NCBI GenBank assembly: GCA_030592105.1
Contig: JAUVKE010000185.1
Coordinates: 1 to 5,446, forward strand
DNA: 5,446 nucleotides
Reading direction: 5' to 3'
Origin: Desulfobacteraceae bacterium
GTDB taxonomy: Bacteria; Desulfobacterota; Desulfobacteria; Desulfobacterales; BuS5
Of the stretch, positions 3-5,446 are shown in pieces. How positions within the stretch are numbered: the first letter of the stretch is position 1; every line of letters begins with the position of its first letter. Made by a program: the position numbers and the translations under genes. The notes below the pieces were generated by a model that searched no databases, had not been told where the DNA came from, and saw only the letters and a list, made by a program, of their open reading frames with translations.

Positions 3-2495
3 ATGGCAAGAATTGTAAACACTGAAGAACAAGATCTATTGGAAAAAGGTGAATATTGGAACTGGGCGGAAAAAGCAAGAACTTCCAGACTAGACTATTT
101 AAGAAAAGCTGTGTGGTCCAAGGCGACCAAGGGTTCTTCGTATCTGCCTGGAGTTAAGGTAGAAACAGAAACAATTAAATGGGGTACAAAGGTGTTCAAA
201 GAGGCAGATCCCATGGAACCATGGGTGTTGACAAAAGGTAAAGCTATGAATGCCATTTTTACCAATAGCCCAGTTTTTATTATCGATCAATCAAGAATAG
301 TCGGCTACAACGGCTCAGCACCACACAACGTTCAATGGTGCCCCTGGGGTTCCTATATGGGGAATGAAGATATATTCAACGACAGATCTGATTATCTGTC
401 TGAAGAAGACAGGCCCTGGCTGAAAGAGGCTATAGATTTCTGGAAACCGAGAACTCTTCTGGCAAAGGCTGAAAAATACCTTACCAGCAAAGAGAGAATG
501 GTATGTGCTATGGGATACACGCTCTGGGGGAACAGAGCTTTGTCCAATGTAGATTACGTTACTCTGCAGCCGGAATGGATGTATAAGGCAGGTTTTGAGG
601 GTGTTATTAAACAGATTGATGAGAATCTTGCAGCTGCCCATAAAAAACTTCACGAAGGCGCTCCTGATGGTGCAGAAGCATTTGAACTTCTTCCAAAAAT
701 CGATCAGTGGAAAGCAATGAAAACATCCCTTGAGGGATTGCTTGTATGGACAAAACGTCATGCAAGGCTTGCCAGAATAATTGCTGAAAATTTTACCACT
801 GATACAACACGAAAAGAAGAACTTTTAAGAATATCAGAAACATGTGAAAAGGTTCCTGGACGTCCGCCTGAACATTTCTGGGAAGTTATTCAATTTGACC
901 ATTTCATGAATGTTGCCTACAGGTTTGAGTGGGGAAGCCAGGGCGGCTGGCCCTGCCGTTTTGATTATTATCAGTGGAAATACTATAAAAAAGATGTAAT
1001 TGATGAAAAAAATATTACCCGTGAAGATGCTGTTGAGTATTGTGCAGAATTACGGTTAAGGTGTTGTGAAACTCACAATGTCAGCATGAGGCTTGCACGT
1101 GAAAGTACCCAGGGAGGCATAATTTATGTGTGGACTCTTGGAGGTACCAATGACGACGGGAGTGATGCATGTAATGACCTTACGGATTGTTATCTCGAAG
1201 CTGCCCGTCTTACAAGAACCTGTGATCCTACCATATCCTTCAGATATCATCCCAATGTTCGTAAAAAAACATTGCAGCAGGTCTTTGAATGCATAAAACA
1301 TGGATTAGGGTATCCCTCCATGAGAAACGACCCTATTATAATGGATTGTTTACAACACTGGTTTGGATTTAGCGTTGATGATTCCCGCAAGTGGGTACAC
1401 CAGGCATGCATGGCACCTGCACCCATTACAAAGACTGGTGCACCAGGTCGCAGATATCCTGGCCCTATTACAGCTGCCGGCGTAAAATCTGTGGAATTAG
1501 CCTTGTTTAATGGAATGGATCCCATCAGTAAAATGCGTATGGGGATAAAGACCGGTGATCCAACCAAATTCAAGACCTATGAAGAATTTTATGAGGCATG
1601 GTTAGAACAACACCGAATGATCATGTATATGGGTGTGAGGATAGATAATATAATTCAGTGGGTTGTAGCAACCCAGCATCAAAGACCATTTATATCATCA
1701 GTAATGGAAAGATGTGTAGAGAGCGGAAAAGATGTTGATGCGTATCAAACAGAACAGGCTACTCTCTGGTTTACGCATTTTGGTTTCAGCGAATACGGTG
1801 ATGTTCTCGCTGGAGTAAAAAAGCTGGTTTATGATGATAAAAAATATACCATGACGCAGCTTTTAGAGATGCTCAAAGCTGACTGGAAGGGATATGAAAA
1901 AGAGAGGATGGAGTTTCTAAAAGTGCCCAAGTGGGGAAATGATGACGATTATGTGGATAATATCTATACCAGCAGTATGAAGGATATCGCCAAAATATCC
2001 TGGGAATGCAAAAATCCCGGCGGATACCCCTGGCCGATTCTTCCTGAAAATATATCCTGCCATGTGTCAAGCGCATGCAAAGTCGGTGCACTTCCCAATG
2101 GAAGACGTTTTAACGACATCCTTTATGACGGCGGGTGCTCACCAGGCGCAGGGATGGACAAAAAAGGACCTACCGCTGTATTAAGGTCAGTTTCCAAATT
2201 TGACCATGTCAAGGACTTCAGGTCCAGCCTCCTTAATCAACGCCTGAATCCAAGCCAGTTCAAGGGCGGAAAGGGGTTTGATCTCTGGAGCAGTTATATG
2301 AAAACCTGGGCTGAATTAGGGATTAACCATGTTCAGTTTAACATGGTTGATAATGACACACTGCTTGCTGCCCAAGCAGAACCTGAGGATTATCCGGAGC
2401 TGCTTGTCAGGGTCGCTGGCTATAGTGCTCATTTTGTTGAGTTGAGCAGAAAGAATCAGGATGCGATAATATCACGTACAGTACAAGCGCTTTAA
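3..2495 (+). CDS. Glycyl radical enzyme, alpha subunit of a fumarate-adding (benzylsuccinate/alkylsuccinate/naphthylmethylsuccinate-type) synthase
   Basis: Probable catalytic subunit of an X-succinate synthase, which joins the methyl or methylene carbon of a hydrocarbon to fumarate in the anoxic cytoplasm. The 830 residues cover the PFL-like barrel (about 25-690) and the C-terminal glycine radical domain (about 695-825). Seen directly: RVAGYSAHF with the radical glycine at G806; the glycyl-radical-family stretch GALPNGRR (695-702) followed by GPTAVLRSVSK (722-732); and HQACMAP with the thiyl cysteine at C469. The cysteine is followed by Met-Ala-Pro, not the Glu of the dehydratase/lyase (GCxE) members; this is typical of fumarate adders. 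R484 lies 15 residues after C469, the spacing of Cys493 and fumarate-binding Arg508 in Thauera BssA; the Cys-Gly spacing (337) also fits (336). The start is at the window edge, so its ribosome binding site cannot be seen and the N-terminus might extend upstream. BssA is about 30 residues longer. The class is well supported; bssA, assA/masD, nmsA and hbsA-type substrates cannot be told apart here, so no symbol is given. No beta, gamma or activase gene follows. Confidence 0.9.
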   Translation: MARIVNTEEQDLLEKGEYWNWAEKARTSRLDYLRKAVWSKATKGSSYLPGVKVETETIKWGTKVFKEADPMEPWVLTKGKAMNAIFTNSPVFIIDQSRIVGYNGSAPHNVQWCPWGSYMGNEDIFNDRSDYLSEEDRPWLKEAIDFWKPRTLLAKAEKYLTSKERMVCAMGYTLWGNRALSNVDYVTLQPEWMYKAGFEGVIKQIDENLAAAHKKLHEGAPDGAEAFELLPKIDQWKAMKTSLEGLLVWTKRHARLARIIAENFTTDTTRKEELLRISETCEKVPGRPPEHFWEVIQFDHFMNVAYRFEWGSQGGWPCRFDYYQWKYYKKDVIDEKNITREDAVEYCAELRLRCCETHNVSMRLARESTQGGIIYVWTLGGTNDDGSDACNDLTDCYLEAARLTRTCDPTISFRYHPNVRKKTLQQVFECIKHGLGYPSMRNDPIIMDCLQHWFGFSVDDSRKWVHQACMAPAPITKTGAPGRRYPGPITAAGVKSVELALFNGMDPISKMRMGIKTGDPTKFKTYEEFYEAWLEQHRMIMYMGVRIDNIIQWVVATQHQRPFISSVMERCVESGKDVDAYQTEQATLWFTHFGFSEYGDVLAGVKKLVYDDKKYTMTQLLEMLKADWKGYEKERMEFLKVPKWGNDDDYVDNIYTSSMKDIAKISWECKNPGGYPWPILPENISCHVSSACKVGALPNGRRFNDILYDGGCSPGAGMDKKGPTAVLRSVSKFDHVKDFRSSLLNQRLNPSQFKGGKGFDLWSSYMKTWAELGINHVQFNMVDNDTLLAAQAEPEDYPELLVRVAGYSAHFVELSRKNQDAIISRTVQAL

Positions 2496-2617: not shown

Positions 2618-2654
2618 AAAAAACCCTGTCTTGATTTTCAAGACAGGGTTTTTT
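2618..2654 (+). terminator. Strong Rho-independent terminator, probably bidirectional
   Basis: A perfect 17-bp inverted repeat (arms 2618-2634 and 2638-2654) closes on a TTT loop. The stem core is CCCTGTCTTGA. Six A on the left pair with six T on the right, so either strand would give a GC-containing hairpin followed by a U tract. It lies 123 nt after the stop codon of the glycyl radical enzyme and would end that transcript. No convergent gene is visible on the other side, so the reverse activity may be unused. Confidence 0.93.
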
Positions 2655-3267: not shown

Positions 3268-5010
3268 ATGTCATCTGTAAAACTACTAAAACCATATTTT
3301 AAAAAAAACTTCCTGATAATCGGCACAGGCTTATTCTGTTTGATTGTTGTAGATTTATTGCAACTTATTATTCCTCGTATAATAAAATGGGTTATAGATG
3401 ATATTGCCACTTTTCAGGCTGATACAAAAAAATTGCTTATTTATGCATTTTATATAATAGGATGTGCAATTTTAACAGGAATATTTCGCTATATTTGGAG
3501 GCGCTCACTTATAGGCATGTCAAGAAAGATTGAAGAAGGTCTGAGAAATACACTTTTTGAACATATTCAGAAACTTTCTGCTTCATATTTTGATAAAACC
3601 AAAACAGGAGTTTTAATGGCCCATGCTACCAATGACATTATGAATATCCGAATGGCAACAGGGATGGGGATTGTTGCTTTAACCGATGCTCTTATACTCG
3701 GTGGCGCAGCAATCGGTTTTATGGCGTATATTAATATTCCATTAACAATATTGGTAATTCTGCCTTTTCCATTATTAGTTTTTTGTTCCCGTTTTTTTAC
3801 AAAAAAAATGCATCAACTCTATATGGAGGTACAGGAAATATTTTCTGATTTATCTGAATCTGTAAGAGAAAAATTTTCAGGCATCCGGATAATCAAGGCA
3901 TATAACAGGGAAGAAGAGGCTGCCTTGCAATTTAACTCAATTTCAAAGGAATATGTATCAAAAAATATTTCCCTGATAAAAATTATAGGCTCTTTTTTTC
4001 CTATGTTGATGCTCTTTTCAAATTTAAGCCTTGTCATAGTTTTGTATGTTGGTGGTAAAAAAACCATCGGATTTCAGATGACACCCGGTGATTTTGTTGC
4101 ATTCATCAGCTATCTTGCCCTGATGTCATGGCCTGTTATGGCTGCAGGATGGTTAATAAATCTTCTTCAGCGTGGTAAGGCCTCCCTTAATAGAATTGAT
4201 AAAATTTTGCAAACCAGGCCGGAAATCACAGATTTACCTGATTCAACTCAAGCCAGCAATATTACAGGTGATATAGTTTTTAAAAATGTTTCTTTTTCCT
4301 ATAATCATAACAGGTTGACCGAATTATCAGATATCAATATAAAGCTTGAGCATGGAAAAGTAACAGGAATCGTCGGTCCCCCGGGAAGTGGCAAAACAAC
4401 CCTTTTAAACCTTATTCCCAGATTATATGACACAACAGATGGACAAATTTTGATTAATAATATTAATATAAAAGATATCAGCCTTTGCAATTTGAGATCA
4501 GAGATTTCCTTTGTTTCCCAGGAGCCTTTTCTCTTTGCAGGAACTATCAGGGATAATATTCTGTTTGGACAAAAAAACATTGATGAATCTGCATTGATCA
4601 AAGCCTGTAAAGAGGCATCCTTATACGACACACTCATGGCCCTTCCCAACGGCTTTGAGACCATAGTCGGGGAAAAGGGGGTAATCCTTTCAGGGGGGCA
4701 GAGACAGCGGGTAGCCATTGCCAGAGCTTTTTTGCATGATGCACCAGTGCTGATACTGGATGATCCGGTTAGTCAGGTTGATGTGGAGACGGCAAATATA
4801 ATAATTAACACAATTAGAAAAAAAACAGCTGAAAAGACAATTATCATTGCATCACACCGGCTTGCAGCGGTCAGCTTTTCAGATAAAATTATTTCTCTTG
4901 AAAATGGCCGGATAATAGAATCAGGAGCCCATTCTGTTTTGATAAAAAATAATTATTACTACGCAACAGTATACCGGATGCAGGAGATAGAAAAAATAAA
5001 TGCAATTTGA
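3268..5010 (+). CDS. ABC exporter half-transporter with degenerate ATP site (MdlA/BmrC/TM287-like)
   Basis: A full-length inner-membrane ABC exporter subunit of 580 residues, close to the length of B. subtilis BmrC (about 585). Six hydrophobic segments are visible at roughly 15-37, 56-77, 130-152, 155-175, 238-262 and 273-297. The nucleotide-binding domain follows: A-loop Y345; Walker A GPPGSGKTT (370-378, K376); Q-loop Q418; intact signature LSGGQ (474-478); Walker B LILDDP (495-500) with Mg-coordinating D498; H-loop H530. D499 takes the place of the usual catalytic glutamate, and the D-loop reads SQVD. This is the mark of the subunit that supplies the degenerate ATP site in heterodimeric exporters. 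Its canonical LSGGQ would complete the active site of the partner encoded just downstream. The substrate (drug, lipid, peptide or other) cannot be read from the sequence. The start is chosen because residues from MSSVKLLKPYFKKN onward match the family's usual N-terminus, although no Shine-Dalgarno sequence precedes the ATG. Confidence 0.93.
   Translation: MSSVKLLKPYFKKNFLIIGTGLFCLIVVDLLQLIIPRIIKWVIDDIATFQADTKKLLIYAFYIIGCAILTGIFRYIWRRSLIGMSRKIEEGLRNTLFEHIQKLSASYFDKTKTGVLMAHATNDIMNIRMATGMGIVALTDALILGGAAIGFMAYINIPLTILVILPFPLLVFCSRFFTKKMHQLYMEVQEIFSDLSESVREKFSGIRIIKAYNREEEAALQFNSISKEYVSKNISLIKIIGSFFPMLMLFSNLSLVIVLYVGGKKTIGFQMTPGDFVAFISYLALMSWPVMAAGWLINLLQRGKASLNRIDKILQTRPEITDLPDSTQASNITGDIVFKNVSFSYNHNRLTELSDINIKLEHGKVTGIVGPPGSGKTTLLNLIPRLYDTTDGQILINNINIKDISLCNLRSEISFVSQEPFLFAGTIRDNILFGQKNIDESALIKACKEASLYDTLMALPNGFETIVGEKGVILSGGQRQRVAIARAFLHDAPVLILDDPVSQVDVETANIIINTIRKKTAEKTIIIASHRLAAVSFSDKIISLENGRIIESGAHSVLIKNNYYYATVYRMQEIEKINAI
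4982..4986 (+). promoter_or_regulatory. Candidate ribosome binding site for the second exporter gene
   Basis: AGGAG lies inside the end of the first exporter gene, 13 nt before the ATG at 5000. The gap is longer than optimal. With the 11-nt overlap and the TAA immediately before the ATG, translation of the second subunit is probably coupled to that of the first. Confidence 0.45.
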
Positions 5011-5446
5011 TTATGGTTATTCCGAAGAAGAGCAACTTGATAAAACTTATGATTTAAAATTAATAAAAAAGCTTTATCCTTTTATACGGCCTTATATTTC
5101 GCTGTTATTTGTATCAATGTTTCTGATTATACTCATAGCAGCAATGGATTTATCACTTCCCTATATAACTAAAATTGCCATTGACCAATATATTGTGCCA
5201 CATACAAATGTTTCTAATATTCCCAATGGCTTTACATCAAAAGAGAAAGCCAGATGCTTTGAAATTGATATGGCAAATGAGGAGTTCAGGCGAATTGTCG
5301 AAAAATATCCTGAGCTGTTTAAAACGCATCAGTCTTTTGCGTTTATATCTTATGATGATCTTAAATCTATTGATGAAAAGGTTTTACAAATACTGCGCAA
5401 AAAAGACATTTACGGACTGGGATGTCTTGCTGCCCTGTTTCTTCTC
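5000..5446 (+). CDS. ABC exporter half-transporter, partner subunit, N-terminal part (MdlB/BmrD-like)
   Basis: An open frame runs from ATG at 5000 to the window end without a stop (149 codons); the rest, including the ATPase domain, lies outside. The codon before the ATG is TAA (4997-4999) in the same frame, so no upstream start is possible. The start overlaps the end of the preceding exporter gene by 11 nt. An AGGAG (4982-4986) lies upstream with a rather long 13-nt gap. The N-terminus is typical of the family: a charged cytoplasmic stretch, then KLYPFIRPY leading into TM1 (about 31-56) and the post-TM1 motif PYITKIAIDQYI (54-65). Instead of the usual short loop, about 70 mainly polar residues (about 66-136) come before TM2 begins near 138. 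B. subtilis BmrD carries an extracellular domain at this place, so this is likely the BmrD-type partner, expected to carry the catalytic Walker B glutamate. The partner role is inferred from gene order and the neighbour's degenerate site. Confidence 0.85.
   Translation, partial: MQFDYGYSEEEQLDKTYDLKLIKKLYPFIRPYISLLFVSMFLIILIAAMDLSLPYITKIAIDQYIVPHTNVSNIPNGFTSKEKARCFEIDMANEEFRRIVEKYPELFKTHQSFAFISYDDLKSIDEKVLQILRKKDIYGLGCLAALFLL

Follow-up and report, generated by a model that had tools for sequence, protein, structure and literature searches.

The enzyme gene of the window

The DNA analyzed here, hereafter the window, is a stretch of 5,446 nucleotides from a Desulfobacteraceae bacterium (GenBank assembly GCA_030592105.1, contig JAUVKE010000185.1). 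Its first gene has its ATG at position 3, and we read the product, with considerable confidence, as the catalytic subunit of an enzyme of the alkylsuccinate synthase type that acts without oxygen, belongs to a separate branch and has an altered hydrocarbon pocket. A likely terminator, a dispersed repeat and two half ABC transporter genes follow it (Table 1). The open reading frame (ORF) comprises 830 translated codons with an ATG start and zero internal stops, and since its relatives share this length (P0002, P0003 and P0005-P0010 have 830 residues, P0004 829) we regard it as complete.

Searches with Pfam profiles recovered the PFL-like (6.8e-119) and Gly_radical (1.7e-27) domains in this protein, which, along with a thiyl-type cysteine and a C-terminal RVxGYSA glycine, complete the set of features of glycyl radical enzymes. 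As an earlier note on this DNA had stated, C469 precedes Met-Ala-Pro without a glutamate, R484 lies at +15 and G806 at +337, inside the motif RVAGYSA; motif check and alignment place all three alike. In the 12-row clade to which the protein belongs (the window clade, see below) these columns hold Cys in 12/12, Arg in 12/12 and Gly in 11/12 rows, the remaining row being truncated, and in view of this alignment and the Pfam E-values a chance origin of the layout is excluded. A CMxP Cys loop lacking Glu and an Arg at +15 are features of X-succinate synthases. The same note compared the layout with that of BssA from benzylsuccinate synthase (BSS); the Cys/Arg/Gly arrangement does match BSS, but a special likeness to it is not supported; MASS, the solved MasD of Azoarcus sp. 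HxN1 (PDB 9o8u), is matched equally well. According to the available sections of the report on the MASS structure, the catalytic residues are Cys493 and Arg508 in BSS and Cys477 and Arg492 in MASS (PMC12358834); the Cys-to-Gly spacing in the solved chains is +336 in BSS and +337 in MASS, and the MASS arginine stands at +15, as in the window. The segment following the cysteine, APITKTGAPGRR, is indeed unlike the CMSP type; its CMAPxPxTK form, followed by Arg-Tyr-Pro-Gly or a near-variant, is the typical signature of the window clade. This Cys loop is not described in the available sections of PMC7673041, PMC8767102, PMC9576796 and PMC6472368, and we make no claim to be the first to report the clade.

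The proposal that this enzyme adds fumarate and stands outside the dehydratase, lyase and decarboxylase groups agrees with the matches to solved structures, both trees described below and the superposition of the predicted fold, and comparison of the sequences makes this function very likely. R484 alone is no proof of it, because Arg also occupies that column in 6/7 rows of other glycyl radical enzymes; the other fumarate contacts and the trees carry the claim. The shared Arg, and the name formate acetyltransferase given to the close relative P0003, could be taken to favor an enzyme without fumarate addition (a lyase, dehydratase, decarboxylase or PflD-like type), but with no Glu after the Cys, at most 320 bits to all such solved enzymes, NCBIfam equivalogs far below their cut-offs and both trees against it, we give this alternative hardly any credence. 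The Archaeoglobus PflD-like enzyme (2f3o_A), tried as a candidate, was rejected at only 248 bits. Superposition with 9o8u and the alignment with Arg492 suggest that R484 faces the C469/G806 site, as the earlier note had supposed.

Table 1. Features of the window, and loci of a small MasE-like protein in related genomes
Feature	Position	Strand	Basis or remark
Catalytic (alpha) subunit, alkylsuccinate-synthase-type X-succinate synthase, 830 aa	3..2495	+	ATG start, complete
C469, predicted thiyl radical cysteine	1407..1409	+	aligns with MASS Cys477, BSS Cys493
R484, predicted fumarate carboxylate contact	1452..1454	+	aligns with MASS Arg492, BSS Arg508
G806, predicted glycyl radical residue	2418..2420	+	alignment, motif RVAGYSA
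Y185, at MASS Tyr194 (BSS Ser199), which shifts fumarate	555..557	+	alignment, PMC12358834 (available sections)
T591 and F593, at MASS Thr598 and Phe600 (BSS Asn615 and Ile617)	1773..1781	+	alignment, PMC12358834 (available sections)
E682, at MASS Glu690 (BSS Gln707), fumarate hydrogen bond	2046..2048	+	alignment, PMC12358834 (available sections)
W175, at MASS Trp185, hydrocarbon-channel block in MASS	525..527	+	alignment, PMC12358834 (available sections)
S368-T369, at Gly-Leu in MASS, Ile384-Phe385 in BSS (TutD)	1104..1109	+	alignment; role of Phe385 from PMC12358834 (available sections)
Likely intrinsic terminator: 17-nt perfect inverted repeat, 3-nt loop, T run	2618..2654	.	122 nt past the stop codon
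Dispersed repeat with imperfect inverted ends	2803-2966 (approx.)
Half ABC transporter 1 (exporter)	3268-5010		best NCBIfam match SmdA-like, below cut-off
Half ABC transporter 2 (exporter)	5000-5446		open at window end, overlaps transporter 1
Small MasE-like protein (TGA forms, apart from the Cys forms listed below)	L075:7669-8007; L007:13361-13702; L161:5684-6019; further, L125-L150	-; +; - (first three)
Small MasE-like protein, Cys forms	L050, L127, L142, L146, L153

Phylogenetic placement

Two trees were constructed from rows chosen by hand. The first (FastTree) contained 153 rows, namely 114 of the 121 proteins P0001-P0121, 15 of 120 further proteins, 22 locus proteins, some of them from cut or broken genes (L001, L003), and 2 solved chains; the second was a quick IQ-TREE run on a 50-row subset under LG+C20+F+G4 with posterior mean site frequencies and Shimodaira-Hasegawa-like approximate likelihood ratio supports. 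The aromatic branch is represented in them by rows of the BSS and hydroxybenzylsuccinate synthase (HBS) type, none of which is named NmsA, HbsA or IbsA; among these, the Desulfosarcina cetonica row (L008) is one that we presume to be HBS. The X-succinate synthases (AssA/MasD together with BssA) were separated from other glycyl radical enzymes as one clade with support 100, spanning 146 of the 153 and 46 of the 50 rows, and the window protein lies inside it, where the earlier note had expected it. Within this clade both trees recovered the BSS/HBS-type rows as one group and the alkylsuccinate-type rows as another (support 100 each), and the window protein falls in the same half as MasD of HxN1 (100 in both).

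The alkylsuccinate clade is itself divided in two. Its first half (supports 99 and 100 in the first and second tree) unites AssA/MasD, among them the HxN1 protein and two from Desulfothermus naphthae (P0094 and P0103), and a basal group that includes a Geothermincola protein (L004). The second half (99 and 99) holds, by the FastTree counts, a 14-row group, a 52-row group with a CMAPAPDTK-like motif and the 12-row window clade, which has support 100 (6 of its rows are in the IQ-TREE subset) and a stem of 0.33 (FastTree) or 0.32 (IQ-TREE) changes per column. Forcing the window clade into the AssA/MasD core gave a tree 181 log units worse (approximately unbiased (AU) test, p 2.2e-81; the groups were picked after the first tree), and forcing it onto the BSS/HBS rows, the comparison that follows from the aromatic guess of the earlier note, gave one 64 log units worse; it groups with neither. 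The window protein is an X-succinate synthase of the alkylsuccinate half, in a separate clade, and its sequence, predicted fold and active-site residues place it in the alkylsuccinate branch. The suggestion of a less-described branch has thus held up, whereas the guess of an aromatic branch akin to NmsA or HbsA, tested here through the BSS/HBS rows, is not supported: the protein was placed in the AssA/MasD half.

The fumarate side of the active site

The available sections of the MASS report contrast the two enzymes at three fumarate-binding positions, Tyr194/Ser199, Thr598/Asn615 and Glu690/Gln707 in MASS and BSS respectively (PMC12358834). At all three the window protein carries the MASS residue, as it also does on the hydrocarbon side with W175 and F593, and with R484 at Arg492 all four MASS fumarate contacts are matched. 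Y185, R484, T591, F593 and E682 are invariant in the 12 rows of the window clade, whereas the BSS/HBS rows have Ser in 20/20, Asn in 17/20, Ile in 15/20 and Gln in 19/20 at the Tyr, Thr, Phe and Glu positions. Given this conservation, fumarate should be held in the manner of MASS.

These positions also bear on the proposal of an aromatic fumarate-adding enzyme, of the benzyl-, hydroxybenzyl- or naphthylmethylsuccinate synthase kind. The window protein has the CMxP loop, the Arg at +15, the Gly and the overall fold in common with BssA/TutD (PDB 4pkc), and BSS was its second-best match among solved structures; yet the two are only 33% identical and fall in separate clades, and Ser199, Asn615, Gln707 and Ile617 of TutD contrast with Tyr, Thr, Glu and Phe in the window. 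With W175 as a further MASS residue, the tree position and an AU p of 0.0155 for placement with BSS/HBS, we consider an aromatic substrate class very improbable.

The hydrocarbon side and clade-specific changes

Differences from MasD of HxN1 appear elsewhere, in part presumably on the hydrocarbon side of the active site. The Gly-Leu pair of MASS is replaced by S368-T369, at a place where, according to the available sections of PMC12358834, Phe385 of BSS lines toluene; position 368 is Ser in 12/12 rows of the window clade and 369 is Thr, Ser, Gly or Ala. A few residues further on, the Gly at MASS381 is deleted in 12/12 rows, and Ile411 stands in 12/12 rows where MASS has Phe419. Beyond these, Ile489 replaces the MASS Thr in 12/12 rows and Pro488 the MASS Ala in 11/12, at positions equivalent to Gly512 and Gly513 of BSS, so that neither the BSS nor the MASS residues are kept there, and an Asp is inserted at 579 in 12/12 rows. 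The W175 column is Trp in 8/12 and Phe in 4/12 rows. With these smaller side chains the hydrocarbon site may offer more room, and S368, the small residue at 369, the nearby Gly deletion and Ile411 for Phe419 point, more weakly, to a substrate that is probably an alkane other or bulkier than the C6-C8 n-alkanes of HxN1.

The sister clade with the CMAPAPDTK-like motif (P0011-P0061 and L003, with L154 and L155 assigned by identity alone) is 52-59% identical to the window protein and resembles it in having CMAP in 49/52 rows and the Thr, Arg, Glu and Tyr contacts in 52, 52, 51 and 48 of 52; unlike the window clade, it retains the Gly at MASS381 in 52/52 rows and has Leu, Met or Ile at the BSS Phe385 position.

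Such changes might alternatively be mere drift in an ordinary alkylsuccinate synthase that acts by the same mechanism on the n-alkane substrates of AssA/MasD, as the retained fumarate contacts, the presence of several paralogues in one genome and the existence of MasD clusters whose substrates sequence cannot tell apart (PMC4703814, available sections) would allow. The long stem, the clade-wide changes at and beside the BSS Phe385 position and the clade-wide deletion tell against drift, and we treat this account as possible while doubting it. The clade further resembles MasD cluster II, a marine-seep lineage without cultured members within a set of clusters I-III that are less than 60% similar (Stagars et al. 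2016, PMC4703814, available sections), in being a divergent marine-seep MasD lineage; this likeness is one of description.

In the 14-row group of the same half, CIVP or CVVP replaces CMSP in nine rows (L086:3145-5643, L088:8057-10555, P0071, P0076, P0082, P0084, P0088, P0092 and P0108), Gln stands at MASS Glu690 in 12/14, and a methylmalonyl-CoA mutase gene lies 6 kb from the L088 gene; this group perhaps acts on another substrate type.

Genomes of the relatives and partner subunits

The named close relatives (L001, L002) come from the metagenome-assembled genome (MAG) CSMAG_3012 of Desulfobacteraceae (G001; 1.6 Mb, partial). In a set of 389 genomes of the order, taken from a larger group, this was the only one with a match above 60% identity. 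The outcome was alike for 395 genomes of the phylum, where the matches in G569 (55%) and G575 (54%) were assigned to the sister clade on identity alone. In G001 the window clade is present as one full copy (contig C152) and as cut copies (two on C173, one on C166), and the genome also has two enzymes of the 14-row type; the L001 copies form a tandem pair, both cut by contig ends, and the cut copy at L086 has further short pieces beside it. Counting fragments, G001 yielded 11 PFL-like matches and G004 (MAG CSMAG_2994) 27, with tandem pairs in L001 and L005. An activating protein for glycyl radical enzymes is encoded in G001 as well (TIGR02494, 321.8 bits against a cut-off of 174.35; below the cut-off of every equivalog listed); it shares 53% identity with an activase encoded next to the L007 enzyme. 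At L007 itself, MasB, MasE and two activase genes surround a MasD-type gene. In the sister clade MasC adjoins the enzyme gene at L003 and at L157, which lies near the G575/G569 matches. At L004:9553-12208, in the actinobacterial MAG Candidatus Geothermincola primus, an alkylsuccinate-type enzyme gene is followed by a MasB-like, two MasE-like and two activase-like genes.

The tandem copies and pieces in G001, in which MasB and MasC were not found, raise the prospect of a spare or decaying paralogue lacking partner subunits. The window ORF is intact, its catalytic residues are complete and the Tyr, Arg, Thr, Phe and Glu contacts are kept in 12/12 rows of the clade, against which decay appears improbable.

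Proposed reaction and points against it

By analogy with MASS and BSS, from which every chemical step is inferred, a radical-SAM (S-adenosylmethionine) activase encoded outside the window would install a radical on G806, which would generate a thiyl radical on C469. The thiyl would abstract a hydrogen from an alkane-type hydrocarbon, and the resulting carbon radical would add to fumarate held by R484, the Cys loop, Y185, T591 and E682, with the product radical being quenched via C469 to give an alkyl-substituted succinate.

Several observations weigh against an alkylsuccinate-synthase-type enzyme with an altered pocket. All members of the window clade are uncharacterized, and the AU rejection of a BSS/HBS placement is moderate. 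Ile411 leans toward BSS (Ile in 19/20 BSS rows), and the 410 column is Ser, as in BSS, in 11/12 clade rows, while the window itself has Thr, as does MASS. Only column 369 is a stated pocket position, through BSS Phe385; 368, 381 and 411 are presumed to be pocket-lining too. V183 (MASS Phe192) was rejected as a mark of the clade, because Phe occurs there in 7/12 window-clade rows and Val in 7/39 AssA/MasD rows. As for partners, the window, whose left edge cuts off the upstream genes, gave no match to an activase, MasB, MasC or MasE; MasB and MasC each had 0 matches in the partial G001 genome, whereas G002-G005 each have both; and the third sister-clade locus (L156), the other one near the G569/G575 matches, has no MasB, MasC or MasE match.

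A small MasE-like protein with an in-frame TGA

A search for MasE-like genes brought up, in three genomes, a small gene interrupted by an in-frame TGA at the same place. A profile built from four sequences gave 28 strong matches (E 1e-20 or better) in 27 of the 389 genomes of the order; two more of an overall tally of 29, G113 and G234, matched weakly and in the initial segment of the profile alone, and were left out. To relate these to the enzymes we used 31 alkylsuccinate-type genomes (29 with full or long matches and 2, G101 and G324, with partial ones) and 13 with the BSS type only, classes set by hand with at most two candidates scored per genome. An alkylsuccinate-type enzyme is present in 26 of the 27 small-protein genomes, as against 31/389 overall, the exception being G333 with a Cys form, and the small protein occurs in 0/13 BSS-type-only genomes (Fisher p 2e-34 for co-occurrence, with hand-set classes and kinship uncorrected). 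On the 7.3-Mb contig of G331 (L161) the small-protein gene stands after masC, masD, masE and masB, in this order, and in G005 (L162) it is preceded by the same series. It often, but not always, neighbors masB/masE or an activase gene; in G001 (L075) it comes after the activase, and in G002 (L077) it is apart from such genes.

Among 31 aligned sequences, 26 have TGA and 5 Cys in the same column. About 6 nt past the TGA a stem can be drawn in 22 of the TGA rows, with eight pairs each formed in 16-22 of these; for one of the pairs, 15 rows have G-C, 4 have C-G and 3 are unpaired. Other features speak against a bacterial selenocysteine insertion sequence: four TGA rows (L075, L147-L149), left out of the pair count, have no stem; z-scores from folding of single sequences against single-base shuffles range from +0.18 to -2.81, many near zero; the stem is kept in 2/5 Cys forms; and, as it lies within conserved codons, protein coding may partly explain it. 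Selenocysteine tRNA scored above the gathering threshold in 36/45 genomes, including 20 of the 26 with TGA forms (not G001, G005, G095, G128, G137 and G341), but because 7 of 10 unselected genomes (G006-G015) have it too it does not discriminate; G001 is a partial genome.

The small protein matched no Pfam family above cut-off (5 forms), no NCBIfam family (9 forms) and no structure in Foldseek at E 0.001; its predicted fold has a small strand-rich part and then three helices (predicted local distance difference test score 87, predicted template modelling score 0.61). A review, among PMC13188914, PMC12013277 and PMC8318568, mentions in its available part, under NF041197, a 'dual CXXC motif small protein' as well as a 'protein DW'; nine small-protein sequences gave no match to this model at E 1. 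We found no description of the protein in print, including the available sections of these three papers, though one may exist. It is a probable selenoprotein, with a UxxC center in many rows and Thr, Ser or Gly for the Cys in some. If it is real, one may speculate that this UxxC MasE-like protein helps to maintain the redox state of thiols or of the activase for the radical enzyme.

The genes of an activase and of this probable selenoprotein form a pair on contig C62 of G001, the sole genome found with close relatives. A tentative and rather unlikely extension, suggested by this pair, is that the clade is a separate alkylsuccinate synthase for a hydrocarbon class unassigned to such enzymes (e.g. 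branched or cyclic alkanes), working without MasB and MasC but with an activase and the MasE-like selenoprotein.

Surroundings of the gene and its host

The half ABC transporter genes are the next genes after that of the enzyme and have no visible link to it. Rfam detected nothing in the window at gathering score; L075 gave one match below cut-off, likely by chance. Copies of the dispersed repeat at 80-86% were seen at L002 (twice), L024, L074, L007, L023 and L032, including copies in G001 and G005, and Desulfosarcina sp. BuS5 has one at 87% on its plasmid NZ_CP087953.1. This sharing points to a Desulfobacterales host; the enzyme gene is probably that of a sulfate reducer of this order. A search of plasmids with the window enzyme gave matches of at most 31% identity in the best 15 of 137 records, and no BuS5 MasD was named among the 120 proteins listed of 264.

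Significance

Members of this enzyme type carry out the first step when oil alkanes are degraded without oxygen, and only a few have known substrates. Among the nine close relatives listed, P0002-P0010, two carry a name, formate acetyltransferase and formate C-acetyltransferase/benzylsuccinate synthase, so that the clade may be overlooked or mislabeled in surveys. The MASS structure supplies named positions at which the pocket of the window clade can be tested. The authors of that structure, in the available sections of their report, call its rubredoxin-like delta subunit puzzling (PMC12358834); if confirmed, the selenoprotein beside the relatives would add a redox part to the system to which that subunit belongs.
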